Part shown: piece after piece, positions 11,634 to 62,911 of the stretch
Numbering within the stretch: position 1 is the first letter of the stretch
Layout of the letters: the number at the start of each line of letters is the position of its first letter
NCBI GenBank assembly: GCA_015039365.1
Contig: WION01000046.1
Span: 1-64,000, forward strand
Direction: 5' to 3'
DNA length: 64,000 bases
DNA from: Amanita rubescens
Lineage: Eukaryota > Basidiomycota > Agaricomycetes > Agaricales > Amanitaceae
Notes under the pieces: generated by a model
Told to the model about the DNA's origin: nothing
What the model saw: only the letters and a program-made list of their open reading frames with translations
Databases searched by the model: none
Translations under genes and position numbers: made by a program

Positions 11634-13837
11634 ATGACCGACCCCCTCGAAGACGATGCCATCCGTTCTGGCACGTCTACTCCTCATGAGTTCTCCGGAC
11701 TCCTTTCTCACTCTCTCTCAGACAATCAACTCACTTCTCGTACAACTAGATTCTCTTCTCCCCTCAACCCAATGTCACCGCGCAGGTTATCATCCCACGG
11801 CTCAATGATACTTTACCGCCTCGCAGAGGACAAGACGGCGCTACTTCCACCGAGATTCGCGTCTGCCCGAAACTCCCTCATTTCAACATCAGGAGACTCC
11901 TACGTATCATTTAGGTCAGACTCAAAGTACCCCTCCACCGTCCTCAAAGGCTCTCACCAAGGCCTCGTACCTTACGAGTATGATCCCACACACGACCAAC
12001 TCGATCCCCCAGACGATGAAGACCAACTCCACGATCCTCGCTCAGACGTTTACCTCAAAGCTGACGCCAATGCTATGCCGTGGAGAGGCATCCTCAACGT
12101 CGGCCTCTTAATCCTTATCATTCTCGGCCTCCTCACTCTTTTCATCTTTTACCCCGTGTATACCTGGTACACTCAACTATCCAAGTACGCCGCAGAAGCC
12201 AACAACATTCGCGTCAACGCAACCGGTACGGTTCCTATTCTCTTCCGCTAGCAACTTCTCACCATTTTGACATTTTCATAGGCCAATCACCGTTACTGTG
12301 AGAACTTATTCCTATTTCCGTCTTCCCCTTCTTCTCATCCTCTCCAGAATCCATCTCCCGGACCTAATAGACACCAGCAACCCCCACCTCTGCAAAAAAA
12401 CGAACGGGTTTCGACGGTCAAGAATACGACCTCGTCTTTTCCGACGAATTTAACACCCCTGGCCGGACTTTTTACCCTGGCGACGACGCTTATTGGGAGG
12501 CCGTCAACCTGTGGTACTGGCGCGACGGGCGATCTAGAATGGTACGACCCCTGGTCAAATCACCACACGCGACGGTTACCTCGTCATCACCATGGACTCT
12601 GCCGACACCGTCCAAGCCAACCTCACCCCCAACTCCACCGCCCCCTTTACCTGCCGCAGACAACCACGCCCTAACCTACCGCTCCGGCATGCTCCAATCA
12701 TGGAACAAATTCTGCTTTTCAAGCGGGTACATCGAAGTATCAGCATCCTTCCCAGGCCCGGACCAAAACACGCAGGGATACTGGCCGGGCGCATGGACAA
12801 TGGGAAATCTCGCAAGACCAGGCTACCCTGCCACCACTTCCGGATTGTGGCCGTACACCTACGATTCGTGCGACGTCGGGACGTTCCCTAACCAAACCTA
12901 CCCAAACGCCTCATGCGCCCGCTTCAGCCGTCTACTCTGCTTTTTCCAGAGCCAAATACAACTACGCCCTAAGCTGGTTACCAGGCCAACGTCTTTCCGC
13001 CTGTTCATGTCCCAACTCTGACCACCCAGGTCCATCCCATTCTACAGGCCGAGGTGCACCCGAAATCGATATATTCGAAGTTGAAAAAGATAAAGTAAAC
13101 CCGACGGGTCAAGTCGCTTCTCAAAGCGCGCAATTCGCACCGTTTACGCATGATTACGTTTATGCGAACGATACGCAGGACGAGTTTGTTATTTATAATA
13201 CGAGTGAGGCGAGGCCGAATACGTATAGGGGGAGTGCGGTGCAGCAGGCTGTGTCGAGTTTGGCGACTGTGCCTGGTGATATGTTTCAAGGGAGTGGCGC
13301 GGTGTTTCATACCATGGGTGCGTGTGGGGGTGTGTTTCATTTGAATACTGACCGACCGAGATTAGGCTTCGAGTATTGGGCCGATCCATCCGATAGACCC
13401 AATAATTTTATCACATGGCAAGTTGACGGGTCCCCGAGTTATCGACTTGGAGCGAGCGCTGTAGGTCCTGATACGGGTACGAACGGAACTGGAGTTGGAC
13501 AACGACTTATACCGGAAGAACCCATGTCGATCGTGCTCAACCTAGGCATATCACCGAATTGGCAAACCATCGACTTAACGACGATGATCTTTCCCGCTGA
13601 GTTGAGGATAGACTATGTGAGGGTGTATCAGAGAAAGGGGAGTAAGAATGTCGGTTGTGATCCGGCTGGGATATCCGACGATGGAGTATATTAATAATCA
13701 TATCGACGCGTATACGAGTGAGTCTTTTCCTTTTTTTCTCTTTCTCTCCCGAATTTGACGACACGCGTATAGATCCGAATATGACGACGTGGGAGTGGCC
13801 GATACCAACGAATAGCGCTTACCATGGAGGTTGCTGA
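11634..13837 (+). pseudogene. KRE6/SKN1-like GH16 protein, copy 2, with multiple single-base frameshifts
   Basis: The N-terminal part is intact: a Ser-rich cytosolic region, the YEYDPTHDQLDPPDDED stretch and one transmembrane span (ILNVGLLILIILGLLTLFIFY). The luminal GH16 part keeps recognisable blocks: LVFSDEF, SGMLQSWNKFCFSSGYIEV, WPGAWTMGNLARPGYPATT, the active-site GRGAPEIDIFEVEKD, WQVDGSP and RIDYVRVYQRKG. Compared with copy 4 it has at least five one-base insertions (about 12525, 12547, 12648, 12910 and 13671), each breaking the frame. Kinase genes on both sides are open, so blanket sequencing error seems unlikely but should be excluded. Functional homologues are ER/Golgi type II membrane proteins needed for beta-1,6-glucan; this copy should not give a full enzyme. 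Confidence 0.8.
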
Positions 13838-19109: not shown

Positions 19110-21132
19110 ATGCGCACACAAAGTATCCCTCCACCGTCCTCAAAGGTTCTCCCACCATACGAGTACGATCCCACCCACGACATACCTCCTCGACGAGTCG
19201 ACGACTATGCCCTCCGCTTCAGCACGTCTTCTCCGGCCTCCTCTCAGACTCACACGACTCAATGATCATCGATCGCATCTCACCTCTACCTACAACCCCC
19301 TCGTCTCCACCTCGGGCGACTCCCACATATGCTTCATGTCGGACTCAAAGTGTCCCTCCACGGCCTCGTATCGTACGAGTACGATCCCACCAACGATCAA
19401 ATCGATCCCCCAGACAACGAAGACCTCCTCCACGATCCTCGCTCTGACGTCTACCTCAAAGCCGACCCCAATGGCATGCCATGGAGAGGCAAGGTCTACC
19501 TCTTGATCCTTATCATCCTCGGCCTCACTCTTTTCATCTTCTACCCCGTGTATACGTGGTACACTCAACTGCCCAAGTACGCCCGTCATTCTCCCTACTA
19601 CTAGGTCCTTCTCACCGTTTTTCATGTCACAGGCCAATCACCACTATGACAAGACAACCTCTTTCTATTTTCGTCTTCTCCCTTGACTCTCTCATCATCT
19701 CCAGAATTCAACTCCCGAACCTGGTAGACACCGCAACCCCCAACTCTTCAAAAGCGTGAACAGGCTTCGACGGCAATGAATACGAACTCGTCTTTTCCGA
19801 CGAATTCGAAAATGCCGGTCGGACGTTTTACCAGGCGACGACCGCTACTGGGAAGCCGTCAACCTCTGGTACGCTGCGGCGGGCGATTCAGAATGGTACG
19901 ACTCACCACACGCGACGGTTACCTCGTCATCACCATGGACTCTGCCGACACTCTCCAAGCCAACCTCACCGACCTAACCTACTGCTCCGGCATGCCCAAT
20001 CATGGAACAAATTCTGCTTTTCAAGCGGGTACATCGAAGTATCAGCATCCTTCCCAGGCCCGGACCAAAACACGCAGGGATACTGGCTGGGCGCATGGAC
20101 AATGGGAAATCTCGCAAGACTAGGCTACCCTGCCACCACTTCCGGAATGTGGCCGTACACCTACGATTCGTGCGACGTCGGGACTTTCCCGAACCAAACC
20201 TACCCCATCATGTCAGCCCCAGCCTCAGCCGTCTACTCCGCCTTTTCCAGAGCCAAATACAACTACGCCCTAAGCTGGTTACCAGGCCAACGTCTTTCCG
20301 CCTGTTCATGTCCCAACTCTGACCACCCAGGTCCTTCCTTCTCCATAGGCCGAGGTGCACCCGAAATCGATTTATTCGAAGTGGAAAAAGATAAAGTCAA
20401 CCCGACGGGTCAAGTCGCTTCTCAAAGCGCGCAATTCGCACCGTTTACGCATGATTACGTTTATGGGAACGATACGTAGGACGAGTTTGTTATTTATAAT
20501 ACGAGTGAGGCGAGGCCGAATACGTATAGAGGTGCAGCAGGGTGTGTCGAGTTTGGCGACTGTGCCTGGTGATATGTTTCAAGGGAGTGGCGCGGTGTTT
20601 CATACCATGGGTGCGTGTGTGTGCGCGCGTGCTTGTTTGATTACTGACCGACAGAGATTAGGTTTCGAGTATTGGGCCGATCCATCCGATAGACCCAACA
20701 ATTTTATCACATGGCAAGTTGACGGGTCCCCGAGTTATCGACTTGGAGCGAGCGCTGTAGGACCTGACACGGGTACGGGCGGAACTGGAGTTGGACAACG
20801 ACTCATACCGGAAGAACCCATGTCGATCGTGCTCAACCTCGGGATATCGCCGAATTGGCAAACCATCGACTTAACGACGATGATTTTTCCCGCCGAGTTG
20901 AGGATCGACTATGTGAGGGTGTATCAGAGAAAGGGGAGTAAGAATGTCGGTTGTGATCCGGCTGGGTATCCGACGATGGAGTATATTAATAATCATATCG
21001 ACGCGTATACGAGTGAGTCTTTCCGTTTTTTTCTCTTTCTCTCCCGAATTTGACGATACGCGTATAGATCCGAATATGACGACGTGGGAGTGGCCGATAC
21101 CAACGAATAGCGCTTACAATGGAGGCTGCTGA
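19110..21132 (+). pseudogene. KRE6/SKN1-like GH16 protein, copy 3, disrupted
   Basis: The copy runs from the SKYPSTVLKG region to the terminal PIPTNSAYNGGC. The cytosolic part is frameshifted. The transmembrane block (LLILIILGLTLFIFY) remains. The GH16 active site reads GRGAPEIDLFEVEKD and is intact. Clear lesions are CAG to TAG at the DTQDEF position (about 20477-20479), a lost splice donor after the GCCAATCACCACT micro-exon (AT instead of GT, near 19646), and a deletion after TLQANLT that removes about a dozen residues. It is highly similar to copy 2 in sequence and in its 3' flank, but the lesions differ, so the copies decayed independently. Confidence 0.8.
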
Positions 21133-30121: not shown

Positions 30122-32239
30122 ATGACGTACTTCCTCGACGACTATGCCCTCCGCTCCAGCACGTCTTCTCGTTCGTTCAACCCCATATCTCCGCACAGGC
30201 ACTCTTCACGCGACTCAATGATCCTCTATCGCCTCGCCAACGACAAGACAGCGCGGCTTCCCCCAATGTTCACCTCCACCCGCAACCCCCTCGTCTCCAC
30301 CTCGGGCGACTCCTACATATCCTTCATGTCGGACTCAAAGTATCCCTCCACCATCCTCAAGGGTTCTCCCCACGGCCTCGTATCGTACGAGTACGATCCC
30401 ACCAACGACCAACTCGATCCCCCAGACGACGAAGACCTCTTCCACGATCCTCGCTCTGACGTCTACTTCAAAGCCGACCCCAATGGCATGCCATGGAGAG
30501 GCATCCTCAACGTCGGCCTCTTGATCCTTATCATCCTTGGCCTCATCACTCTTTTCATCTTCTACCCCGTGTATACCTGGTAAACTCAACTATCCAAGTA
30601 CACCGTAGAAGCAAGCAACATCCGCATCAACGCAACCAGTACGGCTCCCATTCTCCTCTAATACTAAGACCTTCTCACCGTTTTTCATCTCACGGGCCAA
30701 TCACCACTGTGAGAACCTCTTTCTATCTTCGTCTTCTCCCTTTCTCATCCTCTCCAGAATTCAACTCCCAGGCATAATAGACACCGCAACACCCGACTCT
30801 GCAAAAACGCGAACAGGTTTCGACGGCGAAGAGTACGAACTTGTCTTTTCTGACGAATTCGAAAATCCCGGTCGGACGTTTTACCCAGGCGACGACCCCT
30901 ACTGGGAAGCCGTCAACCTCTGGTACGGTGCGGCGGGCGATTTAGAATGGTACGATCCTGTCCAAATCACCACGCGGGACGGGTACCTCGTCATCACCAT
31001 GGACTCTGCCGACACTCTCCAAGCTAACCTTACCCCCAACTCCACCGCCCCATTTACCGCCACAGACAACCACAACCTAACCTACCGCTCCGGTATGCTT
31101 CAATCATGGAATAAATTCTGCTTTTCGAGCGGGTACATCGAAGTATCAGCTTCCTTCCCTGGCCCAGACGAAAACACGCAGGGATACTGGCCCGGGGCGT
31201 GGACGATGGGAAATCTGGCAAGGCCAGGCTACCCTGCCACCACTTCGGGAACGTGGCCGTACACCTACGATTCGTGCGACGTCGGGACGTTTCCCAACCA
31301 AACTTACCCAAACGCCTCTGCGCCCGCTTCAGCCCTCTGCTCCGCATACTCCAATTCCGAATACAACTACGCCCTAAGCTGGCTCCCAGGCCAACGTCTC
31401 TCCGCCTGTTCCTGCCCCAACTCTGACCACCCAGGTCCATCCCCCTCCAGAGGCCGAGGCGCACCGGAAATCGATATTTTTGAAATTGAAAAAGACAAAG
31501 TCAACCCGACGGGTCAAGTCGCTTCTCAAAGCGCGCAACTCGCACCATTCACGCACGATTATGTTTATTTGAACGATACGCAGGACGAGTTTGTTATTTA
31601 TAATTCGAGCAAGACGAGGCCGAATACGTATAAAGGCTGCGCGGTGCAGCAGACTGTATCGAGTTTGGCGGAGGTACCAAGTGATATGTTTCAAGGGAGT
31701 GGTGCGGTGTTTCATACCATGGGTGCGTGTGCGGGTGTGTTTCATTTGATTACTGACCGACCGCCCGTTAGGCTTCGAGTATTGGGCCGACCCATCCAAC
31801 AGACCTAACAACTTCATCACCTGGCAAGTCGACGGTTCCCCGACTTACAGACTGGGAGCGAGCGCTGTAGGCCCCGACACCGGTACAAACGGAACTGGGG
31901 TCGGCCAACGACTTATACCGGAAGAACCTATGTCCATCGTGCTCAACCTAGGCATATCGCCGAATTGGCAAACCATCGACCTAACAACGATGATCTTTCC
32001 GGCTGAACTGAGGTTCGATTATGTGAGGGTGTATCAGAGAAGGGAGAGTACGAATGTCGGTTGTGATCCGGCTGGGTATCCGACGATGAAGTATATTGAT
32101 AATCATATCGACGCGTATACGAGTGAGTACAGTTACGTATCTTTTTGAGGAGGGGCGCTGATGAGACGCGGCAGACTCCAATTTGACGACGTGGCGGTGG
32201 CCGATACCGACGAATAGCGCTTACAATGGGGGTTGCTAG
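30122..32239 (+). pseudogene. KRE6/SKN1-like GH16 protein, copy 4, luminal domain intact but membrane part broken
   Basis: This is the best-preserved GH16 copy. From QLPGIIDTATPDSAKTRTG (about 30765) to the terminal NSAYNGGC the luminal domain is open. It includes YRSGMLQSWNKFCFSSGYIEV, WPGAWTMGNLARPGYPATT, YDSCDVGTFPNQT, GRGAPEIDIFEIEKD (catalytic block), two short introns and RFDYVRVYQR. The N-terminal part is open from ATG 30122 through the transmembrane segment, then TAC to TAA at 30581-30583 truncates it (YTW stop). The acceptor for the next micro-exon has also changed (CACGG for CACAG near 30691). It could only yield a short membrane peptide, or an internally initiated soluble GH16 domain. 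Confidence 0.8.
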
Positions 32240-32775: not shown

Positions 32776-34995
32776 ATGTCATCCGTCGGGTGCCTCGTTA
32801 TCGATCATATGAAGGAATATCTTTGCGAGATCATTGTGCCTATATCTCCTCAAACGACTATCCTCGAACTGAAGCAGCTGCTCAAGGGGATGGAACCAAC
32901 GATCCATGGCGACGTCCACATCCACACGCTCGAGGTGTGGAAATGTGCTGCCCTGGAGGCGTCCGACGATGTCGATCTAGAAGAACTCAAAGAAACCCTC
33001 CTCAGGCTCGACCTTTCCAACAAGCAGATTGCCCGTATGCCTCGTCCAACTTTAAAGGTGTTGAGCCTCGGTTTGAAGGAGGATGAGAGGCTACTAGTAC
33101 AATTGCCCAGTATGTACCCCCATTTACCCTTGCTATATTCACGTGATTTACCTCATGTCAGGTCCTCTCTGGTGCCTCTTCGTCGATCATGATCAGAAGC
33201 CTGTTCGCTTCGTCTCTGTCACCATATCTCCTGGGACCAATGTATTGAACGTGAAGGAGATGGTCTTAGAGAAGGCCCGTATTGAAATTGGCCTCACCGA
33301 CCCCGCAGTGTGGAGATGCTTTGGTTTGAAGGTACGAGGAATGGGAGAAGACGACCAAGCATTTGAGGCACGAGTCCGTACCTTCGACCTTTCTGACAAA
33401 CGGCATGCCGAGAGGCTCTGTGAAACGAGTGCCGTGTTGAAACTCAAGGTGCCACCGGATGAGATGCTGCTGGTACAGTTCCCCAGTATGTACTCTCTTT
33501 CAATCCTGCTATACGCAAGTGATTCACCATCGTAGATATCCGGCAGGACAAGCGCAAACATGACGAAAATGACGATCCGCCATCACAACTCAAGCGTCTG
33601 AGGATGGAAATTGCGGAAGCGCCGTCGCTCCTAGCTGTTTCTTCCGAATTCCAAAAAATCACGGGACCAGAGCATGGCATTGCCTTCAATCGTCCGTTCG
33701 AACCCTTTACGATTCCTCTCGTACTACTTCATGAAGCCTTTGCGATCTTCAAAGATAGGTGTGAAAAGGCACCTTCGGAGCGAGCACTCATTTGCCTCAG
33801 TAAACTCGTCCCTGTCGCCTGCGAATGGCACGGTCTGGAGCTCTCCCGGAGGACGGCAATTCAGTCCGTAATCGCGCAACACACGGGTCTCCAGTTCCGC
33901 GAGCAGAAAGTCCCGGGTACCGAATTCACGACCGATGGAAACCTTGCCATCATCGTCATGCCGGCAGCTATCCGAGAATGCAAGAAGGAGCACGGAAATG
34001 TTCTCAACCAGGCCATCCTATACTATGCAAACTTTCTGAGCAAAACCCATGAGGATCACCGTCGCTTTTACAACTTCAACACACGTTTTCCGAGCATTCT
34101 CATGGTAGATATGGGTACGTCTGCTCATTTATCGCCCGTTCACTTGTTCAAGGTATATGCAGGTCCGTATTTGGGATTTTACGGCGCTGTATGGGACGGG
34201 AAGCGCGTAAGGGTCGAACCTCTCACGCCTCTCTTCGATCTGTCGACCCATTGGAGGGAAACGAAAGCCAGATGCGCCATCGCAGCCTCCTTCGATGCAC
34301 TCATGATTGCCGTTAACAGTATTGAAGCACATTACAATTCAATCGAAGCCGAGGCCAACGTGAATTCCCCACCAGAGAGGTACGATCGTGACCTTCAGAA
34401 AGCTCGCGGATATCCGTTCTTGACATCTTACGAAGACAACGGGCAGGAAATAAATTTCATGTACAATGAACGGCTCCACGACGAAAAGCTTATCTTCTCC
34501 GCCGCCATTGTCAACCAGCCTGACTCCGAAGAATTCGTTGTCAAGTTCACACCGTGGTATTCGGAGGACGCGCATAACTGTCTGTCATCCCACAATTTAG
34601 CGCCGAGGCTTCGGCGATGCGTTCGAATATCTGCGGATTGGATTGCGGTCATCATGGACAAATCAAAGTACCGAGTACTCTTTGGTCTACAGCTCTCCGA
34701 CGCTGACAAGGAGAAGGTGCGACATAAAGTGACGAGCATGGTGCGAATGCTACATCAAGAAGGGTTTGTTCACGGGGACATTCGAGAAGCCAATATTCTT
34801 ATCGACTATAAGTCGCTTACATCTGATGATGTGAAGATTCACCTAATCGACTTCGATTGGGCCGGGCCTATTGGAGAAGCCAAGTACCCAGCTGAAGTCA
34901 ACAAGATAACTATGAGACGCCCGGATGGTGTGGAGGGTGGCGGGCTCATCACTAAACAGCATGACATTGAAATGATATCGTTTCTGTTCGCGTAA
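32776..34995 (+). CDS. Crinkler-type protein: two ubiquitin-like N-domains, NLS and kinase-like C-domain
   Basis: Exons 32776-33109, 33162-33485 and 33536-34995, with a further likely 48-nt in-frame intron at 34115-34162 (VDMG joined to PYLGF). Exons 1 and 2 each encode a Crinkler-like ubiquitin-fold header ending in a LLVQ(L/F)P block, with LDLSNKQIAR and FDLSDKRHAE at equivalent places, so the header is duplicated. Exon 3 opens with RQDKRKHDENDDPPSQLKRL, a bipartite nuclear signal. The C-terminal domain carries HGDIREANILI and LIDFDWAG, the catalytic loop and a DFD-type metal motif of the kinase-like fold found in Crinkler effectors and many basidiomycete proteins. Crinklers act in nuclei of the producing or a neighbouring organism. 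No signal peptide is visible, which is common in this class. Confidence 0.75.
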
Positions 34996-35691: not shown

Positions 35692-37140
35692 TCAGAACCT
35701 TAGTCGCCCTTTCAGACCCGGCAAGGAAGCTGCGATATCGGATTTCGTCGAAGATGAGGGAGTGCTCCTGTTTACAGACGGCTCGGGGACCGACGAAGAG
35801 GTTTGCACTGACGGGGGATTGGACGTCCTTGTCTCCCTCGGAACAAGTTTGGAATAAAGCGGCTGTAATTTCGGTCGCTCCGCCACGTCAGCAAAATAAG
35901 TAACCTTCCAATACCGTGCAAGTAGCTCTCCACACAGCTTCGTGTCTTTGAATGATAGGAAGCCATTCTTTCTCACCTCACGAAGGAACACGAAGTTAAC
36001 TTGGTCCGTCTGCTCCGGCGTGAGTTTGGTGATCGTGAAGGTGAATTCATCTTTTTGGCCGGGGCCCGCTCTGTACTGATGGATATTTTCGTCCATTGGG
36101 AGGTCGCCAACAGTTTTAGCGACCGGCGGGATCTTCGGAATCTTATCCAGGTTACTGTTGATTAAAATCTGCCTGCCCCTTGCCATCATGTTTATCATGT
36201 TTTCCCGGAGGCGAAGTACAAACAACATCGTGGGACTGATAACGAACAATCGGTGCAGTCCTAGTTGGAGCGTTTCTGGAAGGCTGAAAAGACCAGAAGA
36301 GAAGTTTGCCAGGCCCTCGAAGAGCCCCAAGTTATTATCCGTCAAGACGAATTCGCGTCCGGGTGCAGCCTGCCAAATCTGCAGGTAATAACACCCTCCC
36401 AGCGTCGCATACGAGTTTGCAACCGTTCCGTAAGGGTCTTTGGTAGGATCCGCACGAGGGCCGCCGGAACCAAACACGTACTCAGACCCCCGTTTGATCA
36501 AATCGTTGTGCGGGGTATCGAGGATGTATGCCAAAGCATGCAGCCACATGTCCAGAGCCGTAGCGGACCCTCCACCACGCTTCGCCGCAGCCTCAGTGGC
36601 AAACTCTTCAATCCACTGCGGCGCGGCGGCGTTATCGGGGTGGTTCACGTCGAAGAAGTGGTGTGATATGGGGACTTTTCGAAAGAACATGATGAAGATG
36701 AACTTGCGGAGACGTTCGAGCTTCTCCCGCGAGATGACGACATCCCGACCACTCGCTGCATCTTTGTGCATCAACTGGATGAGTTCAACCGACGGGTTTT
36801 CGACGAGCCGGCCAAGCTTGGTCTCGACTTCATCAATGTCATTGATGTTTTTGTAGTCTCGATAGAGGTTGTGGACACCATAGGCATCGTCAAACGAGAG
36901 TTCATCTAGAACCTCAGTAGAGAGATTGAACACACGAAGCTTTCGAGGGTCTTTGCCCGTCCGCTTTTTCTGTTGATCGACTTGCTTCCTCGTTCTATTA
37001 CGAAGACGGAAAGGCGCCGTCACCTTGTGCACTGGCATAGCTTTGAAGTAACGCACTCACAGGGGTGGGGTACTCTGGAAGTACTTGAGGATGAAGCGGG
37101 GAATGGTATGGTGGTACACTTTGGGGCGAGGACGCGGCAT
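35692..37140 (-). CDS. DUF4238-domain protein
   Basis: Two exons, 37061-37140 and 35692-36994, joined by a 66-nt intron, give about 460 residues. Exon 1 encodes MPRPRPKVYHHTIPRFILKY, matching the HHxIPRFxLRxF start of DUF4238 proteins. Exon 2 continues with basic KQVDQQKKRTGKDPRKLRVF, LSTEVLDELSFDDAYGVHNLY, ENPSVELIQLM and later VLTDNNLGLFEG, a layout usual for this family. DUF4238 proteins are found in bacteria and fungi; their function is not established and some occur in mobile regions. The C-terminal 50 residues are Ser/Pro-rich. The frame is fully open and sits among KRE6 debris. Confidence 0.75.
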
Positions 37141-41249: not shown

Positions 41250-44227
41250 TTATTGTGCATGGAAAAACTGGGTGGATGTTATGATTCGTACCATCCGGGC
41301 GGTTGGATCTTGGAATAAAAACACCAGGCTTTTCGTGACATCCTTCATGCTTGGCCGTTCCAACGCCTCCCTCCCCCAGCATCGTTGAATCACGTCCCAT
41401 CCTCCGTCACTCAAAGGTGGGTGATTCGGTCGTGGTGGTTGTTCCCCTCGAAAGTGGAGGCTCCAGATTTGTAAGTCCGTTCTACCTGCAAATGGTATAC
41501 TATCATAATGTATCTACAGAATTCAGAAGTGTAACAATGTATTTATTGTGACTCACTTCGTAAAAAAGACATCCAAACGCATAGACATCCGTCATTTGCG
41601 TTCGGGCCGGAACACCATTAACATCGTCATTTGTAGGGAGGATCCCGAATAACTCGGGGGCCGAAAAGTTGAGATGTTTAGCCCCAGATTGGGTATTCGT
41701 GGCGTCCGAGAGTCTGGTCAATCCGAAATCGGCTATTTGAACACGAAGATTGGAATCCAAAAAGATATTTTCCTAAGAGAATTATCAGCACTCATATGTA
41801 GCGTGTTTTAAGTAGAATACCCCGCGAAGGTCGCCATGAATTGCGCCTACTGAATGAATATATTCAATGCCCTGTGCCGCTTCCAGGATCTCGAAGGGAA
41901 GTAAGCGTCAATAAAGAGCCAAGGAGAGGAACCGTACCCATTCTTCTATCTCGGATACTGATGGATTTTCTTTCTTCCGCCATCGGGCCAGCGTACCATT
42001 CGTCATAAAGGGCGAGACAAGAAAGAATTGGGGCACTTTTCCATCCAAAACTTCGTAGATTCCATAAAATGGCAGCACAAACTTGTGCTTGAGCGATCCC
42101 CACATCAACGCTTCTCGACAAAAGGCCTGTTGGAGAACAATAAACAACACCTTTATTAGAACGACGTAAATGGCTTACGACATCGTTGTCAGACTTGTAC
42201 AACACTTTCAGAGCAACAACTTCCTCCCGCATTTTTCCCTCGAAAACGCGCCCGAATCCGCCGCTACCAATGTAATTGCGCTCGGTTGGCATGCAGACTC
42301 CCGTTACAACCAATGACGGTGGGATGACAGGCATCTTTGAATTGAGTTTGAACATCAGTCGCCTCGCTCGTCCGTTGATGTCTATGGTTGGATCCGAATT
42401 GCACAAGCGGCGGTCGCGAAGCAGGTGAAGCAAAAAATCCATCAAGTTCTGGACGTCCGAGGCTTGGTCAAGTTGTTCCGCAACGCTGAGATAGTCTTCT
42501 CTAGTCAAGATCCTACACACGAGATCGATGATCGATGCATTGACGACAGACGTGATACAAGTTCCGGGCTATAAGCTCATTAGTACTATGCGGATGCGTT
42601 TTCTGATATCGCTATACCTTCCAATCCTTAAGAATGAAAAGCAGAAATAAGAGGGGATGACGGTCTGGATCGGACATCATCATATCACTGATGTCTTTTA
42701 TAGCTGGTCGTTCCGACGGCATCATCGCCCAGCACCGCTCGATCAACTCCCAAGCTTCATCTTTCAAAGGTGGGTCGTCCAGTCGAGGCGGACGCACGCC
42801 TTGAGAGACAAGGGCCATGACTTGTAAGCCCTGTCTACCGGCAAAAGGTATGTTGTCGTAATGGATCTGCGTAATTCAGTAAGAGAATCCGCATATTAAT
42901 TATAACTCACTTCATAATAAAGACATCCGAACGCATATATGTCCGACATTTGGGTTCTGGCTGGATCATAAGCTGAGTCGTCGCCGTCCTCGACGCGTCC
43001 AAACAACTCCGGGGCCGCGAAGTGCATATGTTTCGCTCCAGACCGCGTATTCGTTGTATCTGAGAGTCGGGTTAACCCAAAGTCGGCGATTTGAACATGA
43101 AGGTTGGCTTCCAAGAGAACGTTGTCCTAAAAAGGATTGTCAGTTTCCCAACAAAGCATGTTTCCGGATAGATTACCCCTCGGAGGTCGCCATGAACCAT
43201 GCCTTCGGAATGAATGTATTCGATGCCCAGAGCTACTTCCAGTATCTTTCAGACGGGTGAGATAAAGGGTAAGTCAACCAAAGAAAAGACCTACGCGTTC
43301 TTCTATCTCGAATACTGATGGAGCCGCCTGCTTCCGCCACTGAGATAAAGTGCCTTTCTCCATATAGGGAGAGATAAGAAAGGCCGTTCCATCTTCGTGT
43401 TCATCGATTCCCAGGAATGGCAGCACAAATTTGTGCTTTAGCGATCCCCACATCAAAGCCTCTCGACAAAAGGCCAGCTGGAACCGAAATAATAAAAAAG
43501 TTGCGTTCAAATGAGAACGAGACGTCGGACTTACAGCATTATCATCGGACTTGTATAACACTTTCAACGCAACGGGTTCTCCCTTTAGCTCGCTCTTGTA
43601 AACGCGCCCGAACCCACCACCGCCAATATAATCTTGCTCCGCAGGCTGGTTGACTCCAGTCGTGATTAAAGACCACGGTATGACAGGCGTTTTTGTTATG
43701 ATTTTGAACATGAACCGCCGTGCTCGCCGGTTGAAGTCGTCCTGATTTGGTAAGAGACGATAGCGAAGTATGTGAAGTATGAAATCGAGAAGATTTTGGG
43801 AGTCCGAGGTAAGATCTAGCTGTGTTGCAAGGTTGAGGTAGTCTTCTCCGGATAGTAGCTTGCACATGAGATCGGTAGTGCTTGCGTTTACGACAGACGC
43901 GATAGAGGAACCGGGCTACGAGGTCTTGAGTAGGTATATTCCGCGCTTAAAAATGCTACGCACCTCCTTGGCATTGAGTATAGAGAGTAACGGTGGGAGG
44001 GTATCGCTCTCGATATCATTCTTCATGTCGTATGACGTTTTTGGCGTCCTCACACCTCTCGACGGACCAACGTTCCGCCTATACTCATGGAGTTCCTGCG
44101 CAGTCATTTCTTCCAACGTTTCTAGTTTCTCCGACGAGTCCTCTTCAGCCCATTCAATAAACTCTGGCCTTTGCAGTGCATCCCTAGTAAACACGATTGC
44201 GGAGCTTCTGAGCTCCTTGGGGACCAT
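41250..44227 (-). CDS. predicted tandem double-kinase protein (K9-K8)
   Basis: Eleven exons, all phase 0: 43964-44227, 43535-43915, 43295-43477, 43177-43245, 42911-43126, 42618-42866, 42179-42568, 41938-42126, 41821-41889, 41557-41772 and 41250-41513, giving 829 residues. The K9 C-lobe exon has no stop. After PAIKDISDMMM it runs directly into SDPDRHPLLFLLFILKDWK, the half-module that should begin the next unit, and then splices to K8 (PGTCITSVVNAS...). This is the clearest evidence that units are translated together. Both kinases look competent: GGGGFGRVYKS/GSGGFGRVFEG, VALKVLY, HGDLRG, IADFGLTR, APELFG. The N-terminal 65 residues are unique and rich in acidic and basic residues. K8 has no ATG of its own. 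The 3' end might splice further at 41291. Confidence 0.75.
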
Positions 44228-49334: not shown

Positions 49335-51778
49335 CGTTTGGAAATCCTCAGTCGCTTGCCTTCATTGGTCATAATACAGAATCTGTAGATCGACGGGCTC
49401 CAAAGCCGGCAGAGAAATACCGGCCTGCGGTTGGCCAAGCTTGCCCGATTAAGTAGCGAATTGTCCCATGTTCAGATACCGAGTTCCCAAACCAGTGCCA
49501 GAGACGCCGCCGCCAATGGAAGCTTGTCGAGATGGAGCAGAAGTAGGACCCAATAGTACCTGCCAACTGTGACCAGAACCACCACGGGTCGTCGAGAGCT
49601 GATTGACAGGTTCTATGCCAATTGTATCCAAAGGAGGAAGCGACTCTGGTCTTTCCTTGCAGATTGACGTAAACTGTAACAAAAAATCGCGATCATATCT
49701 GCAAAGCATGAATATTTTACCACTGCAGCGCACGATTTGCGATCAACGTACCTAAATTTGCCTGCTTTGGCTCCTACATTAAGCTCGGGGTCCTGGACTG
49801 GAGATACCTGGAGGATATGTAACACTACCAAGATCTTCAAGCGGACGACGTATCAGGGTGAGGGGTGACGACGGTCCAGAATGTGTTAAATCGAGAGGCC
49901 CGGGCCGCCGTCTCGCAGAAAGCGCCGTGTCGATGCGAAGTGACCCTCCAGACTTCTCTTTAACATCATCCTTGCTCGAAGGAAGTTCGCCCTCCTCTGG
50001 CTCCGGCGTTAGCGCCTCTTCTTCTTGGGGCGTGACGCTCTCGTCGGGATGGGTTGGCTCTTCCAGCGGCTTGGTGCGAGGCTGAGGCATATGCTTTCTC
50101 TGAGGCTGATATAAATCGTAGTAGATGTCTGCCCAAGGAACAAATTCGGTCGTAGTACTGAACGTTGATATGGCGTCCTGCAACATCCCATCATTTCGAG
50201 CACTGGTTGGGGGTGACACACATTGAGATTCTTTTTTCTTCTTTTTTTTCTTTTTCTTTTTCTTCGTCCCGTTTAGGCATTGAGAAATAGCCGTCATCTG
50301 TTCTGCGACACCTTTCATTCTTGGCCGTTTTGGTGGCTCCATCACCCAACACTCCCGAATCAACTCCCATGCCCCGTCACTCAAAGGTGGCACATCCAGT
50401 CGAGGTGGATGGTTACCTCGAGTAACAAGGGTCATGATTTGTATATCCTGTTTACAGGCGAATGGTATACTATCGTAATGGATCTAGGCAATTCAGCAAG
50501 GGGCGTGCGTCGATATATTTCTGTGACACACCTCATAATAAATACACCCAAATGCGTAAACATCTGACATTGGCGTTCTTTTTGGCTCCTCAGCTGAGGG
50601 GTCGTCAGGATCTTCAAAGCATCCAAATAACTCGGGGGCTGCGAAGTTGAAATGTTTCGCGCCAGAACGGGTATTCGTAGCATCCAAAAGACGAGTTAAA
50701 CCAAAATCCGCGATTTGAACGTGCAAGTCGTCATCCAAGAGGACATTTTCCTGAACAGACTCGTCAGCATTTCATCAATACATGTTCTAGGCAGCATACC
50801 CCACGGAGGTCACCATGAACGACACCTTCTGAATGGATGTACTCCATGCCTTGGGACACTTCAAGAATCTTGCTGGGATCAGTGACGATGAACTAGAGCG
50901 GAGGAAGGAAACACCATACGCGTTCTGTTATTTGGGCTATCGATGGATTTGTGGTCTTCCGCCATTGGGCTAGAGTCCCATTCTTCATATACGGCGAGAC
51001 GAGGAAGGCCATTCCATCTTCCTCTTCATAGATTCCTATGAATGGTAGTACGAAGTTGTGCATAAGGGATCCCCACATTAAAGCTTCTCGACAAAAGGCC
51101 TGTTGGAAGGAGAATAAACAACGATGACTCAAGAGTAGACGCGTATTGAAAACTTACAAGGTTGCTGGCATCATGTTTGTACAGCACTTTTAGCGCAACG
51201 ACTGTGCCCCGAAATTCGCCCTTGAAAACGTTGCCGTAACCACCGCGACCTATGTAATCGCGCTTGTCCGGCATGTCGACTTCAGTTACGATGAAGGATC
51301 GTGGCACGACGGGCGTCTTTGATATGATTTTGAACATCCAGCGTCTTGCTCGCTGGCTGACATCCGTGGTTGCATCCTGGTTCGTCGATAGATGACCACG
51401 ACGAAGTACATGCAGTATGAATTCCACCAGATTCATTACGTCTGATTCCTGTCTTATCTCTTCCGCAATGTCGACATAGTCGTCCCTCGATAACAGTCCG
51501 CGCAGAAGAGCGACGGACGTGACGGAAGATCCGAGCTACTGACACTTGAAGCAGAGTGCATGACTAACCGCTTCGCAATGTTGCGTACCTTTAAGTCGTT
51601 AAGAATAGACAGCAATGACGAGAGAGCATGGCCACCCGGATCAAGTGACATGTTGTTTGGAGACGTCCGGAATGCCCCCTCGGGATCGGCGAGCTGCTCC
51701 AACTCGGCCTGAGGAAGTTGAGTTCTAGGACTATTTCTGGGGCTAGTGTAGCTCTGGCGAACGACTTAAGCGTCTAAT
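49335..51778. repeat. near-identical segmental duplication, copy A
   Basis: This 2.44-kb block recurs at 53024-55465. By eye I find two single-base differences: one extra C near 49791 and one extra G near 51551. Identity drops abruptly at both ends. Confidence 0.9.
49779..51651 (-). CDS. kinase K10 with polylysine tail, C-terminal tail frameshifted
   Basis: Exons 51589-51651, 51158-51535, 50920-51099, 50800-50868, 50532-50750 and 49779-50483 give 537 residues. Kinase motifs are GRGGYGNVFKG, VALKVLY, HGDLRG, IADFGLTR and APELFG. After the C-lobe (MEPPKRPRMKGV) come eleven consecutive lysines and an acidic, Pro-rich tail with TPEPEEGELPSSKDD. An extra C at about 49791 shifts the frame, so the tail ends SSPGPRA. 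The paralogue K11 continues for a further 95 or so residues; the matching sequence is still present down to 49449 but out of frame. The ancestral promoter motif CTAATCGTGTGAATGG is retained upstream (51774-51789). Confidence 0.85.
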
Positions 51779-53023: not shown

Positions 53024-55465
53024 CGTTTGGAAATCCTCAGTCGCTTGCCTTCATTGGTCATAATACAGAATCTGTAGATCGACGGGCTCCAAAGCCGGCA
53101 GAGAAATACCGGCCTGCGGTTGGCCAAGCTTGCCCGATTAAGTAGCGAATTGTCCCATGTTCAGATACCGAGTTCCCAAACCAGTGCCAGAGACGCCGCC
53201 GCCAATGGAAGCTTGTCGAGATGGAGCAGAAGTAGGACCCAATAGTACCTGCCAACTGTGACCAGAACCACCACGGGTCGTCGAGAGCTGATTGACAGGT
53301 TCTATGCCAATTGTATCCAAAGGAGGAAGCGACTCTGGTCTTTCCTTGCAGATTGACGTAAACTGTAACAAAAAATCGCGATCATATCTGCAAAGCATGA
53401 ATATTTTACCACTGCAGCGCACGATTTGCGATCAACGTACCTAAATTTGCCTGCTTTGGCTCCTACATTAAGCTCGGGGTCTGGACTGGAGATACCTGGA
53501 GGATATGTAACACTACCAAGATCTTCAAGCGGACGACGTATCAGGGTGAGGGGTGACGACGGTCCAGAATGTGTTAAATCGAGAGGCCCGGGCCGCCGTC
53601 TCGCAGAAAGCGCCGTGTCGATGCGAAGTGACCCTCCAGACTTCTCTTTAACATCATCCTTGCTCGAAGGAAGTTCGCCCTCCTCTGGCTCCGGCGTTAG
53701 CGCCTCTTCTTCTTGGGGCGTGACGCTCTCGTCGGGATGGGTTGGCTCTTCCAGCGGCTTGGTGCGAGGCTGAGGCATATGCTTTCTCTGAGGCTGATAT
53801 AAATCGTAGTAGATGTCTGCCCAAGGAACAAATTCGGTCGTAGTACTGAACGTTGATATGGCGTCCTGCAACATCCCATCATTTCGAGCACTGGTTGGGG
53901 GTGACACACATTGAGATTCTTTTTTCTTCTTTTTTTTCTTTTTCTTTTTCTTCGTCCCGTTTAGGCATTGAGAAATAGCCGTCATCTGTTCTGCGACACC
54001 TTTCATTCTTGGCCGTTTTGGTGGCTCCATCACCCAACACTCCCGAATCAACTCCCATGCCCCGTCACTCAAAGGTGGCACATCCAGTCGAGGTGGATGG
54101 TTACCTCGAGTAACAAGGGTCATGATTTGTATATCCTGTTTACAGGCGAATGGTATACTATCGTAATGGATCTAGGCAATTCAGCAAGGGGCGTGCGTCG
54201 ATATATTTCTGTGACACACCTCATAATAAATACACCCAAATGCGTAAACATCTGACATTGGCGTTCTTTTTGGCTCCTCAGCTGAGGGGTCGTCAGGATC
54301 TTCAAAGCATCCAAATAACTCGGGGGCTGCGAAGTTGAAATGTTTCGCGCCAGAACGGGTATTCGTAGCATCCAAAAGACGAGTTAAACCAAAATCCGCG
54401 ATTTGAACGTGCAAGTCGTCATCCAAGAGGACATTTTCCTGAACAGACTCGTCAGCATTTCATCAATACATGTTCTAGGCAGCATACCCCACGGAGGTCA
54501 CCATGAACGACACCTTCTGAATGGATGTACTCCATGCCTTGGGACACTTCAAGAATCTTGCTGGGATCAGTGACGATGAACTAGAGCGGAGGAAGGAAAC
54601 ACCATACGCGTTCTGTTATTTGGGCTATCGATGGATTTGTGGTCTTCCGCCATTGGGCTAGAGTCCCATTCTTCATATACGGCGAGACGAGGAAGGCCAT
54701 TCCATCTTCCTCTTCATAGATTCCTATGAATGGTAGTACGAAGTTGTGCATAAGGGATCCCCACATTAAAGCTTCTCGACAAAAGGCCTGTTGGAAGGAG
54801 AATAAACAACGATGACTCAAGAGTAGACGCGTATTGAAAACTTACAAGGTTGCTGGCATCATGTTTGTACAGCACTTTTAGCGCAACGACTGTGCCCCGA
54901 AATTCGCCCTTGAAAACGTTGCCGTAACCACCGCGACCTATGTAATCGCGCTTGTCCGGCATGTCGACTTCAGTTACGATGAAGGATCGTGGCACGACGG
55001 GCGTCTTTGATATGATTTTGAACATCCAGCGTCTTGCTCGCTGGCTGACATCCGTGGTTGCATCCTGGTTCGTCGATAGATGACCACGACGAAGTACATG
55101 CAGTATGAATTCCACCAGATTCATTACGTCTGATTCCTGTCTTATCTCTTCCGCAATGTCGACATAGTCGTCCCTCGATAACAGTCCGCGCAGAAGAGCG
55201 ACGGACGTGACGGAAGATCCGAGCTACTGACACTTGAACAGAGTGCATGACTAACCGCTTCGCAATGTTGCGTACCTTTAAGTCGTTAAGAATAGACAGC
55301 AATGACGAGAGAGCATGGCCACCCGGATCAAGTGACATGTTGTTTGGAGACGTCCGGAATGCCCCCTCGGGATCGGCGAGCTGCTCCAACTCGGCCTGAG
55401 GAAGTTGAGTTCTAGGACTATTTCTGGGGCTAGTGTAGCTCTGGCGAACGACTTAAGCGTCTAAT
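53024..55465. repeat. near-identical segmental duplication, copy B
   Basis: Partner of 49335-51778, offset 3687-3689 bp. It ends at GCGTCTAAT, inside the conserved promoter motif. Confidence 0.9.
53138..55338 (-). CDS. kinase K11 with polylysine stretch and full C-terminal tail
   Basis: Exons 55276-55338, 54846-55223, 54608-54787, 54488-54556, 54220-54438, 53441-54171 and 53138-53387 give 629 residues. It is the same as K10 through the kinase and K11-lysine stretch. Here the frame continues (SSPDPELNVGAKAGKF), splices at 53388-53440, and ends with YDRDFLLQFTSICKERPESL and GTGLGTRYLNMGQFAT. The whole kinase looks competent. Its promoter differs from K10: the motif is cut after CTAAT by a probable transposon, and the missing half lies at about 57628. 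The tail's role is unknown; the lysine run could act as a nuclear or membrane-binding patch. Confidence 0.85.
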
Positions 55466-59545: not shown

Positions 59546-62500
59546 TTACAACACTTGCTCAGTGGTAGAAAGCGCCAATCTGCTCACTGTACTACTATCA
59601 AGTGTTGATGAAGATGGGGATTCTTCTCGCAGAGTTTCATTGTCAGCGTTGCTTTGGGGAGACACAGATTGCGACATCGCTATCATGCTTTCCACGACGT
59701 CATTCATTCTTGGCCGTTTCAACGGTTCCCGCACCCAGCAACGCTGAATTACGTCCCATGCCTCATCGCTCAGAGGCTGCCCGTCTAGCCGAGGCGGAAG
59801 TACCTCTCGAGAGACAAGAGTCAAGATCTGCATGTCCGTTTTCCCGGCAAAGGGTATACTATCATAGTAGATCTACTAGACAAGTCAACATCGAAGGAGG
59901 ATCAGCATATTCGTCATGACGCACTTCATAAGAAAGGCATCCAAACGCGTAGACATCCGACATTTGCGTTCTGGGCGATGGGTCGTCGGACGGATCGTCG
60001 TCATCCTCGGAGATTCCGAATAGCTCTGGGGCGGCAAAATTCAGGTGTAGCGCTCCCGATCTCGTATTTGTAGCTTCTGAGAGTCGAGTCAAACCGAAGT
60101 CAGCGATTTTGACATGAAAATTATCATCCAAGAGGACATTTTCCTATAGAGCAAAGTCAACATTGTAACGTAGTGAGTCTGAAGTAGAATACCCCGCGGA
60201 GATCGCCATGAAATGCGCCTTCTGAATGGATATATTCCATTGCTTGCGCGACTTCCAGTAACTTACGAGATTTAGACGTAGAATGAAAGAAGAACTTGTA
60301 TGTAAACGTACACGTTCTTCAATAACGGCTATTGGTGGATTTGCTTGTTTCCGCCATCTGGCTAGAGTACCATTCTTCATATATGGCGAAACAAGGAAAA
60401 ATTGTGGCACAGGTGTGTCTTTGATTTCATGGATTCCTAAGAATGGTAGTACGAACTTGTGGTCGAGGGATCGCCACATCAATGCCTCTCGGCAGAAGGC
60501 CTGTTGGTCTTCTCATCAACAATCACATTATAACAACAACTCAAAGACAAACTTGAGACATACAACTTGGTTATCAGACTTATACAACACTTTCAGTGCG
60601 ACAACATTTCCCCCTTGTTTGCCCCTGAAAACGCGCCCAAAGCCGCCTCCACCAATGTATTCACGATCGACCGGTATGCTGACTCCAGTTACGACCAAGG
60701 ACGGTGGAACGACAGGTATCCTTGAGATAACTTTGAGCATAAACCGTCGTGCTCGCCGTGTGATATCCATAGCGGTGGAATCCTGATGAGATACACTATG
60801 ATCAAGAAGCATATCAAGTAGGTGATCCAACAGTTCACTGGCATCCGAGGGATCATTTATCTGAGTCACGAGGTTAAGGTAGTCCTCTCGGGATAGAATA
60901 TCGTACACGAGGTCGCCGATTGTTTCACCTAAAGTGATGGGATATAAATACTATTGGTTTGGTTCTTAAGTGTAGGACATGGCGGCAGGTATTGAAACGG
61001 CATACCTTCGTATAGCGATGTTTGAGTATATGCAATAGCAATGGAAAGGCGTAGGTGTCAGGATCATACAGCATTTTAAATGATGGCATAATGTGCATCT
61101 TTGAGAAAACTTCCAACATAAATCGTCTTCCACGCCGGCTCATGTCTACTGTGGAAGAATTCTGATTTGAGAAAGGATAGTACTCAAGCATCATCAGTAA
61201 GAAATGCAACAGATTGTTGGCATCAGAGACTTGGTCTAGCCGTGCCACGGTATCGATGTAGTCTTCCCTGGATAGAATGTGGCGCATGAGGTCGGTCATC
61301 ACTGGATGTTCTTCGGCGGTTTCATCCACCCACTGTTAGCTCTTGAGAGAGTGATTTCACGGTTTAAAGTGTCACGTACTGGGGCTTGATACTTGAGCAT
61401 GTAGAGGAGCAACGGGAAAGAATAGTTTTCAGGATCATCTGATGGGATTGGCAATGGTTCAACGTATGTCTTTGACATAATTTTCAATAGGAACAGTCTT
61501 CCTCGCTGCCAGATCATGTCCGAGTCTGCATTGTCAAAATCCATGTAGAAAGTATTACCAAGTACGAAATCCAGCAAATTTGTGGCGTCTGCGGCACGGT
61601 CAAGCTGTGCCACAATGTCTATGTAGTCCTCCTGGGATAGAATCTCATATATAAGGTCCCATAGTGTGTTGTCTATACAAAGGGGCCCGGAGAAACGTAT
61701 CGGCTAGTACCAGCTTTTATGAGAGTGCATCCCCAATTGGAATTTTACGCACCTTGGGCATCTCAGTGTTGACTCGGAGTATAGCAACGATCAGTTGGAA
61801 AATCTCGCTGAAAGGATGATATGGCATGTTGGAGTTGGACAATGATATACCTTGAGTCTTTGCGGTCACTTCCAATATAAATCGGTTTGCTTGTCCTTTC
61901 AAGTCTGTATTAGGTTGACAAGAGGCATAATAATGAAGTCTGTGGCATATTAAAGTCAACAGATTCCCGGCCTCTGGGTTATGATGTAGCTCTTCCTTGG
62001 AATAGACGTCATCTTTTCTTGATAGAATCTCACTCATAAGATTTACTGCCAATTCATTTGTTGCAAGAGGATATCCAAGCTATTGGCCGTTAAAAGAATG
62101 CATCCCTTGTTTGAAATGCTGCGCACCTCCACATTGTTCAGTATATAAAAGAGAGATGGGAACATATTGCTGTGAGGATCATACGATATGTTGGACCGTG
62201 GTTCGCCACACATTTTTGAGATAACTGCCAACATGAGTTGCCTCGCCCGAAAATCGTGATGTGGATCAGGTGGTAAAGGGAAACGATCAAGCATACACGT
62301 TATGAATTCCAACAAATTTATGGCGTCCGAGAATTGATTCACCTGTGAGGCAAGGGTGATGTAGTCCTCCCTGGATAAAATCTCGATCATAAGGCTGATC
62401 CATATCGTTTCGTTATCAATGAACGTAGCAGATTCGGGCTATTGGCTCTTAAGTATAATGTGTTCCAGTTTGATAGGTTGCACACCTTAGTTTTGAGTAT

Positions 62501-62911
62501 GGAGAGGAGTAATGGGAATATATAACTGTCAAGATCATGCGGCGGTATGTTGGACAGTGGGACACCATGCATCCTTGAGATAACTGCCAACATGAATCGT
62601 CTTGCTCGTCGGTTCATGTCTACGGTGGCGGGATCCTGATTTGATAACGAATGATTTTGAAGCCGAAACCGTATCAAATCTATCAAATTCTGGGCATCCG
62701 AAACAAGGTCTAACTGCGTCACGAGGTAAATGTAGTTGTCCCTAGATAGAACCTTGGACAATAGGTTGAATGGTGATGTGGACAATGAGTGGATACACTC
62801 CGGGTTTGAAATACGGTCGCGTACCCCGTTGCGGAGTGCGGAGAGCAACCACGGGAAGGTGTTATCGCTGCCAACATCATGCGACACCACTGGCATGTTG
62901 TGCCCTTCCAT
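59546..62911 (-). CDS. kinase K12 with six tandem N-terminal modules
   Basis: Ten exons, all phase 0: 62486-62911, 62127-62438, 61753-62079, 61380-61703, 61006-61332, 60564-60950, 60312-60500, 60193-60261, 59925-60143 and 59546-59872, giving 968 residues. The first five exons each encode one copy of the module that occurs once in the other kinases. It has an ILSREDYI-type helix, a SDAxNLLxF helix, an RxRRFMLxVxSK helix, and a DPDxYxFPLLLxILK helix. The sixth copy is joined to the kinase (GGGGFGRVFRG, VALKVLY, HGDLRG, IADFGLTR, APELFG). There are no stops or frameshifts in any module. Modules 1-5 are divergent from one another, so the array is old and maintained. It may form an alpha-solenoid binding surface. 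Confidence 0.82.

Follow-up and report, generated by a model that had tools for sequence, protein, structure and literature searches.

Amanita rubescens is an ectomycorrhizal mushroom, and the stretch of its DNA analyzed here (the window, 64,000 nt) is part of contig C396 (274,980 nt) of a 75.7-Mb genome. The genome set of PMC7550596 includes this species, and an A. rubescens database protein, P0002, aligns to contig C396. At 59546-62911, on the minus strand of the window, lies a gene that we modeled with ten exons and nine GT-AG introns, all in phase 0, encoding 968 residues. Six diverged modules of about 105 residues, carried by six exons, are followed by a TK/TKL-like kinase. The parts of the gene are as follows.

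62825..62911, minus strand: N-terminal segment (MEGHN...FPWLLSALRNG), the counterpart of exon 1 of the paralogs (alignment, hydropathy)
62753..62824, minus strand: former intron 1, read through in frame or spliced as 72 nt (DNA alignment of six arrays)
62486..62803, minus strand: module 1, position type p1, whose 5' end overlaps former intron 1 (profile, tree)
62127..62438, minus strand: module 2, type p2 (tree, leave-one-out profile)
61753..62079, minus strand: module 3, type p3, with the weakest leave-one-out match and the highest dN/dS (profile, tree, dN/dS)
61380..61703, minus strand: module 4, type p4 (tree, leave-one-out profile)
61006..61332, minus strand: module 5, type p5 (tree, leave-one-out profile)
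60678..60950, minus strand: module 6, kinase-proximal type (profile, tree)
60564..60677, minus strand: linker and start of the kinase domain (YIGGGGFGRVFRG...VALKVLYK) (gene model)
60312..60500, minus strand: kinase exon (AFCREALMW...IEER) (gene model)
60193..60261, minus strand: catalytic-loop kinase exon (...FHGDLRG) (gene model)
59925..60143, minus strand: kinase exon with DFG and APE (ENVLLDD...LSYE), matching PK_Tyr_Ser-Thr at E 5.3e-10 (Pfam, gene model)
59546..59872, minus strand: last kinase exon, C-terminal tail and stop (gene model)

The coordinates proposed for the six module exons in an earlier, sequence-only reading of this DNA were exact. All exon lengths were multiples of three and all exons were flanked by AG and GT, with an ATG start in exon 1. 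The linking introns, described there as phase 0 and about 47-55 nt long, measured 47, 47, 49, 47, and 55 nt and were all in phase 0. For exon 62486-62911 the coordinates and frame held, but the exon includes a stretch that is intron 1 in the paralogs. DNA alignment of six arrays revealed a 29-nt gap in this gene where the acceptor region was deleted, and this deletion explains why the former intron stays open in frame. The same stretch could alternatively be spliced out as an in-frame intron of 72 nt (62753-62824). The database protein found for this gene, P0054, is labelled "partial" and covers only the kinase part (residues 700-968); other database models of the modules may exist beyond the length-limited protein searches. 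No membrane helix was detected by hydropathy, for which the 19-residue maximum over the whole protein was 1.56, and no signal peptide was recognized on inspection by eye.

The six-module tandem array is real. As the sequence-only reading had proposed, the six exons encode the same pattern: each module was matched by a profile built from the other five, with E-values from 3.8e-34 to 2.3e-13, the latter for module 3. The E-values refer to a search space of 5,477 open frames (30 residues or longer) taken from 264 kb of contig C396, and modules 1 and 6 were trimmed to the module itself. The identities among the six modules ranged from 25 to 48%, with a mean of 38%. The slowest-changing positions were mostly leucines and the RRARRFM..V segment. 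Of 97 windows of the module alignment, 6 showed helical periodicity, starting at columns 25, 35, and 62-65; that the module is helical is thus a fair guess. The alpha-solenoid receptor or scaffold guessed at in the sequence-only reading, in which helical repeats would stack, is a candidate fold. The view that no named domain corresponds to the module also stood. When the six modules and 18 domains of the module family were searched against Pfam, no model scored above its cut-off, and a PDB profile search returned no matches at E 10. Two weak Pfam matches were rejected as chance, i.e., Proteasome with module 1 only (E 0.00098, 19.3 bits, cut-off 22.4) and EAD9 with one of the 18 domains (E 0.048). 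Searches of four proteins against NCBIfam left the module unmatched; they returned matches to kinase-like, GTPase, and further P-loop models, nearly all of which scored well under the cut-off.

The boundaries of the repeating unit had to be redrawn. The pattern had been described as ending with DPDxYxFPLLLxIL, and while the repeat itself holds, it is better drawn as starting at that motif. In the single-module kinases, the segment corresponding to this array tail is the first exon. When the array tail was compared with the N-terminal ends of 23 proteins from databases (four from environmental samples), the exon-1 segment was the best within-protein match in 18 (the misses being P0036, P0037, P0043, P0047, and P0049), with a mean of 12.1 bits compared to -2.9 bits for shuffled sequences (maximum -0.06 in 300). 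Moreover, wherever the single-module kinases of A. rubescens were readable, their phase-0 intron had the same position. Thus, one unit consists of an FPLLL segment, an intron and a core, and each array exon carries one core plus the first segment of the next unit.

The module is also not foreign to kinases. It is the kinase's own pre-kinase segment, single in the neighboring kinases and multiplied here. Its last 57 columns matched the segment that precedes the kinase domain in proteins of Mycena and Marasmius, with an hhalign probability of 95.6 and a score of 51.2, compared to 17.9 for the best of 100 column-shuffled decoys; row P0014 was reduced to 2 residues in this comparison. The module thus represents, in Amanita, a pre-kinase segment that Agaricales kinases share and that has no name. 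Direct matches of the module to the Mycena kinases P0060, P0061, and P0063, with which it shares homology over these 57 columns, were weak (E 0.003-0.05). Different from the gene described here, these Mycena kinases have one copy, of which only the last part is recognizable; the first half of the module was not recognized outside Amanita. The single-module kinases of A. rubescens, A. brunnescens, and A. thiersii are similar in having the same module just ahead of the kinase, and differ in having one module instead of six.

The statement that the other kinases have one copy is correct for the window, where all ten other module loci were single (E 0.01), but not for the genome, in which at least 22 loci with six modules were found. 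Rather than a single gene, the array marks a gene subfamily: five further six-module loci lie on contig C396 outside the window. In total, 264 kb of this contig contained 39 module loci, six of them with six modules and 33 with a single module, which at one locus was split in two. Among 26 grouped loci on other contigs, 16 had six modules, two had five, one had four, six had two and one had one. These counts are lower bounds, as they were merged from five module searches with 150 candidates scored in each, and the grouping covers loci with neighboring modules, leaving out many additional single loci. The module loci are not all independent, because contigs C266 and C77 are near-copies of positions 148-185 kb of C396 (99.85 and 100% identical, respectively, over two 3.3-kb stretches compared) and are probably its haplotigs in the assembly. 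The best matches of the four-module locus, on contig C5, were p1, p2, and p5, and this locus seems to lack types p3 and p4. Within the window, identical modules 3.7 kb apart (51263-51532 and 54951-55220) probably arose when a single-module kinase was recently duplicated in tandem.

Among 65 fetched proteins, tandem modules occurred only in A. rubescens (P0001-P0004, P0007, and P0023, the last with one partial module), and single modules ahead of a kinase were found in A. brunnescens and A. thiersii. Three protein searches yielded at least 4 homologs among 8000 proteins scored, 9 among 3569 and 60 among 895. Because these searches need shared 5-mers and limit the length, the failure to see tandem modules elsewhere is weak evidence. 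No description of this six-module array was found among the titles and abstract openings listed in literature searches.

In a tree of 72 modules, the copies grouped by position across genes. The p1 modules of six arrays formed a clade with UFBoot/SH-aLRT supports of 99/96, and those of five arrays, without A183, formed clades p2 (100/97), p3 (100/100), p4 (100/100), and p5 (100/98). One clade (100/100) also held all 31 upstream-type modules, among them the first module of each of P0003 and P0004. The tree is built on few columns and leaves many forks unresolved; an identical module (S54) and fragments of less than 80 residues at 77948, 81118, and 239141 were left out. As a six-row group, p2 had a support of only 56/0, and module 3 of A183 grouped with position 2. 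Modules 5 and 6 of A183 formed one merged row and this array was excluded from the p5 grouping. By its placement, A183 is an older or reshuffled relative. The grouping largely by position indicates that the order of the six modules was established before most of the genes duplicated and that five arrays descend from one six-module ancestor, without homogenization between modules. The mean identities within the six arrays ranged from 36 to 42%, broken modules left out. With a separate identity at each position, the array would be an ordered six-part assembly and not a repeat of variable length.

A possible origin of the array is suggested by double genes in the order module-kinase-module-kinase. 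All three that were tested, at 41321-44011 of the window (minus strand) and at 136647-139347 (minus strand) and 243677-246438 (plus strand) of contig C396, were open. Each contains ten introns, all in phase 0, and is free of stops and frameshifts from residue 1 or 2 to residue 743 or 764 of the 799-residue reference, HGD and DFG are present in both kinases, and the frame is continuous across the junction. These genes suggest read-through fusion and are a plausible intermediate type. Adjacent module-kinase genes would have been read through into one frame, and loss of the inner kinase would have left a module, the FPLLL exon-1 segment and a second module, giving a two-module kinase such as P0003 and P0004. 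Amplification of the exon unit would then have yielded five copies ahead of the kinase-proximal module. A single fusion with later amplification of the exon would be expected to leave all upstream-type modules in one clade, as observed. This path of fusion, inner-kinase loss and amplification is inferred from possible intermediates.

The sequence-only reading had described the copies as diverged but open and apparently maintained, and this was borne out. Three arrays of contig C396 (the one described here, A148, and A177) and two of contig C147 (L003 and L006, read from module 1 on) had an open frame wherever they were aligned; the frameshifts introduced by the aligner into A148 and A177 sit at intron 1, which is lost in the gene described here and spliced in P0002. 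Under a neutral simulation with 0.22 changes per site, a value chosen at about half the pairwise dS, 11.8 stops were expected in 669 codons and none of 1000 runs was free of stops; only stops were counted, with frameshifts excluded. Across five arrays, including the broken A84 and A154 and leaving out A183, dN/dS was 0.17 for the kinase (dS 0.43) and 0.41-0.73 for the modules (dS 0.32-0.68). Thus, constraint acts on the modules, though far more weakly than on the kinase. Per-column change was high in two loops of the module, where dS was also raised and the alignment is in doubt. The idea that these loops are positively selected contact surfaces was dropped, as their omega values of 0.58 and 0.47 compare to 0.51 for the rest.

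The same data bear on whether local duplication produced the array as a by-product that does little, in which case the kinase with the last module, translated from an internal start, would be the functional protein. Such a reading would fit the kinase-only extent of P0054, the relaxed dN/dS of the modules relative to the kinase, and the state of the six arrays of contig C396, two of which are broken (A84 with one stop, A154 with a frameshift and a stop) and a third of which, A183, has a frameshift in the kinase. It is nevertheless quite unlikely, given five arrays that stayed open where about 12 stops would be expected under neutrality, and a six-fold order that was retained after duplication. 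The copy nearest to the gene described here, on contig C5, contained several frameshifts and one stop. At the A154 locus, the annotation has two separate proteins, P0007, with three clean consecutive modules, and P0058. In the models P0001 and P0002 the catalytic-loop exon is in another frame, with an intron read through and HGDLRG lost; spliced alignment of the A148 locus restores the usual HGDLRG reading. Two JGI-sourced sequences, P0040 and P0050 (from contigs of 1,219 and 1,400 nt), cross four kinase intron sites without an intron, as judged by eye, which suggests that transcripts of related kinases exist. No such intron-free sequences were found for the array.

The catalytic residues of the kinase are intact, including the lysine of VALK, the glutamate of CREA, HGD, N, and DFG. 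Its nearest solved kinases include Lyn, Abl, CTR1, RIPK1, RIPK3, and Lck, and TK and TKL kinases scored similarly in phmmer searches against PDB. FslK kinases are fungi-specific kinases close to tyrosine kinases that represent a TKL expansion of Agaricomycetes (PMC3937382). The TK-specific motifs given there are DL[RA]A[AR]N, P[IV][KR]W before APE, and L or M in GxR(L/M) (PMC3937382). All three are absent here by inspection of the sequence alone, which reads HGDLRGEN, LNFAAPE, and REVLPPR (RGVLPPR in the paralogs), with a proline at the presumed site of the third motif. Similar to FslK kinases, the kinase comes from the same fungal class, lacks the TK-diagnostic residues by inspection and is present in many copies, and it is probably of the FslK class. 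Additional domains occur in 16 of 241 FslK members (PMC3937382); the gene described here differs in having its pre-kinase segment six times.

FslK and Laccaria TKL expansions were suggested to serve mushroom or mycorrhizal biology (PMC3937382; PMC2838846). In line with this, the array might be a developmental or symbiosis scaffold that docks fixed partners in order for phosphorylation by the kinase, as its mostly fixed number and position-specific identity would allow. We consider this rather doubtful, as many tandem copies with broken members would be unusual for a core scaffold.

In A. thiersii P0045 (AMATHDRAFT_5234), the module is preceded by a NACHT-type NTPase and followed by the kinase; NPHP3_N passed its cut-off (55.1 bits, cut-off 24.8), whereas NACHT itself stayed below (24.8 vs. 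26.7). The architecture of P0045 is NLR-like with a C-terminal kinase. In A. rubescens P0010, on a contig of 1,667,397 nt, the module lies between a P-loop GTPase and the kinase (MMR_HSR1 37.0, cut-off 21.9). Because an NTPase or a GTPase precedes module and kinase in these proteins, the module occupies the junction between input domains and the kinase.

Fungal NLRs with repeat arrays combine NACHT with WD40, ANK, or TPR, and in their highly identical arrays a high repeat identity goes with a variable copy number. By analogy, these proteins and the gene described here share a repeated input region and a conserved other end; different from the high-identity arrays, the repeats here are 38% identical on average and mostly six in number. 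An immune-type receptor is a further candidate, in which the six-domain region would detect non-self or damage molecules, the kinase would signal as NACHT-kinase proteins would, and birth-and-death evolution would reflect an arms race. The density of module loci (39 in 264 kb, some of them open and others broken), the fast modules next to a conserved kinase, and the NACHT-type NTPase ahead of the module in P0045 are all compatible with it, and the N-terminal NLR domains that served as search seeds in PMC9815663 already included kinase domains. A module dN/dS below 1, with the two loops close to the rest, does not indicate positive selection, however, and the module number is mostly fixed. Moreover, no NACHT or NB-ARC NTPase was matched in the seven of ten exons scanned, nor in P0001 and P0003. 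We therefore regard an immune receptor as possible but rather unlikely.

To our knowledge, the inputs of mushroom TK/TKL-like kinase families are not known. The architecture of the gene described here is observed, and its function can be proposed from sequence. Our preferred reading, to which we assign a probability of about 0.55, is a cytosolic TK/TKL-like kinase, probably of the FslK class, whose pre-kinase domain was multiplied to six as an input platform. The placement of the module between input domains and kinase, together with the cytosolic features of the protein, would favor such a platform with module 6 as the coupler. Modules 1-5 would form an extended platform that binds partners or assembles oligomers, module 6 would couple it to the kinase, and the kinase would be activated by proximity or by relief of inhibition. 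IRAK and RIPK kinases combine a helical interaction domain with a TKL kinase and may work in a like manner, a TKL kinase being paired with a small domain for interaction; the nearest solved kinases, moreover, include RIPK1 and RIPK3. Unlike in IRAK and RIPK, six copies are present here and no Death-domain match was found at the sequence level, where PDB gave 0 matches and Pfam no Death family, the weak EAD9 match aside. A more tentative and rather improbable extension is that the gene represents an undescribed class of fungal sensor kinases, made by fusion and inner-kinase deletion, in which six non-equivalent helical units in fixed order each recognize a different partner and the terminal kinase integrates their signals.

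For mushroom TK/TKL-like kinase families, the module family provides a defined candidate input domain, unnamed in Pfam. One, two or six copies of the module stand ahead of a conserved kinase, the fused double kinases are a plausible intermediate, and the number, order and need of the modules offer a testable handle on how these kinases are switched. The gene family is also a probable example of a multi-domain protein built by gene fusion and domain loss.

The window contains other genes as well; the Pfam scan of its frames covered 10 of 35 long frames. Strong matches to SKN1/KRE6, of beta-glucan synthesis, were found at 12675-13694, 19760-20479, and 30609-31808 (plus strand), between the kinases. 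An open frame at 33523-34995 (plus strand) had weak protein-kinase and Kdo-kinase matches, and a DUF4238 protein is encoded at 35692-37056 (minus strand).
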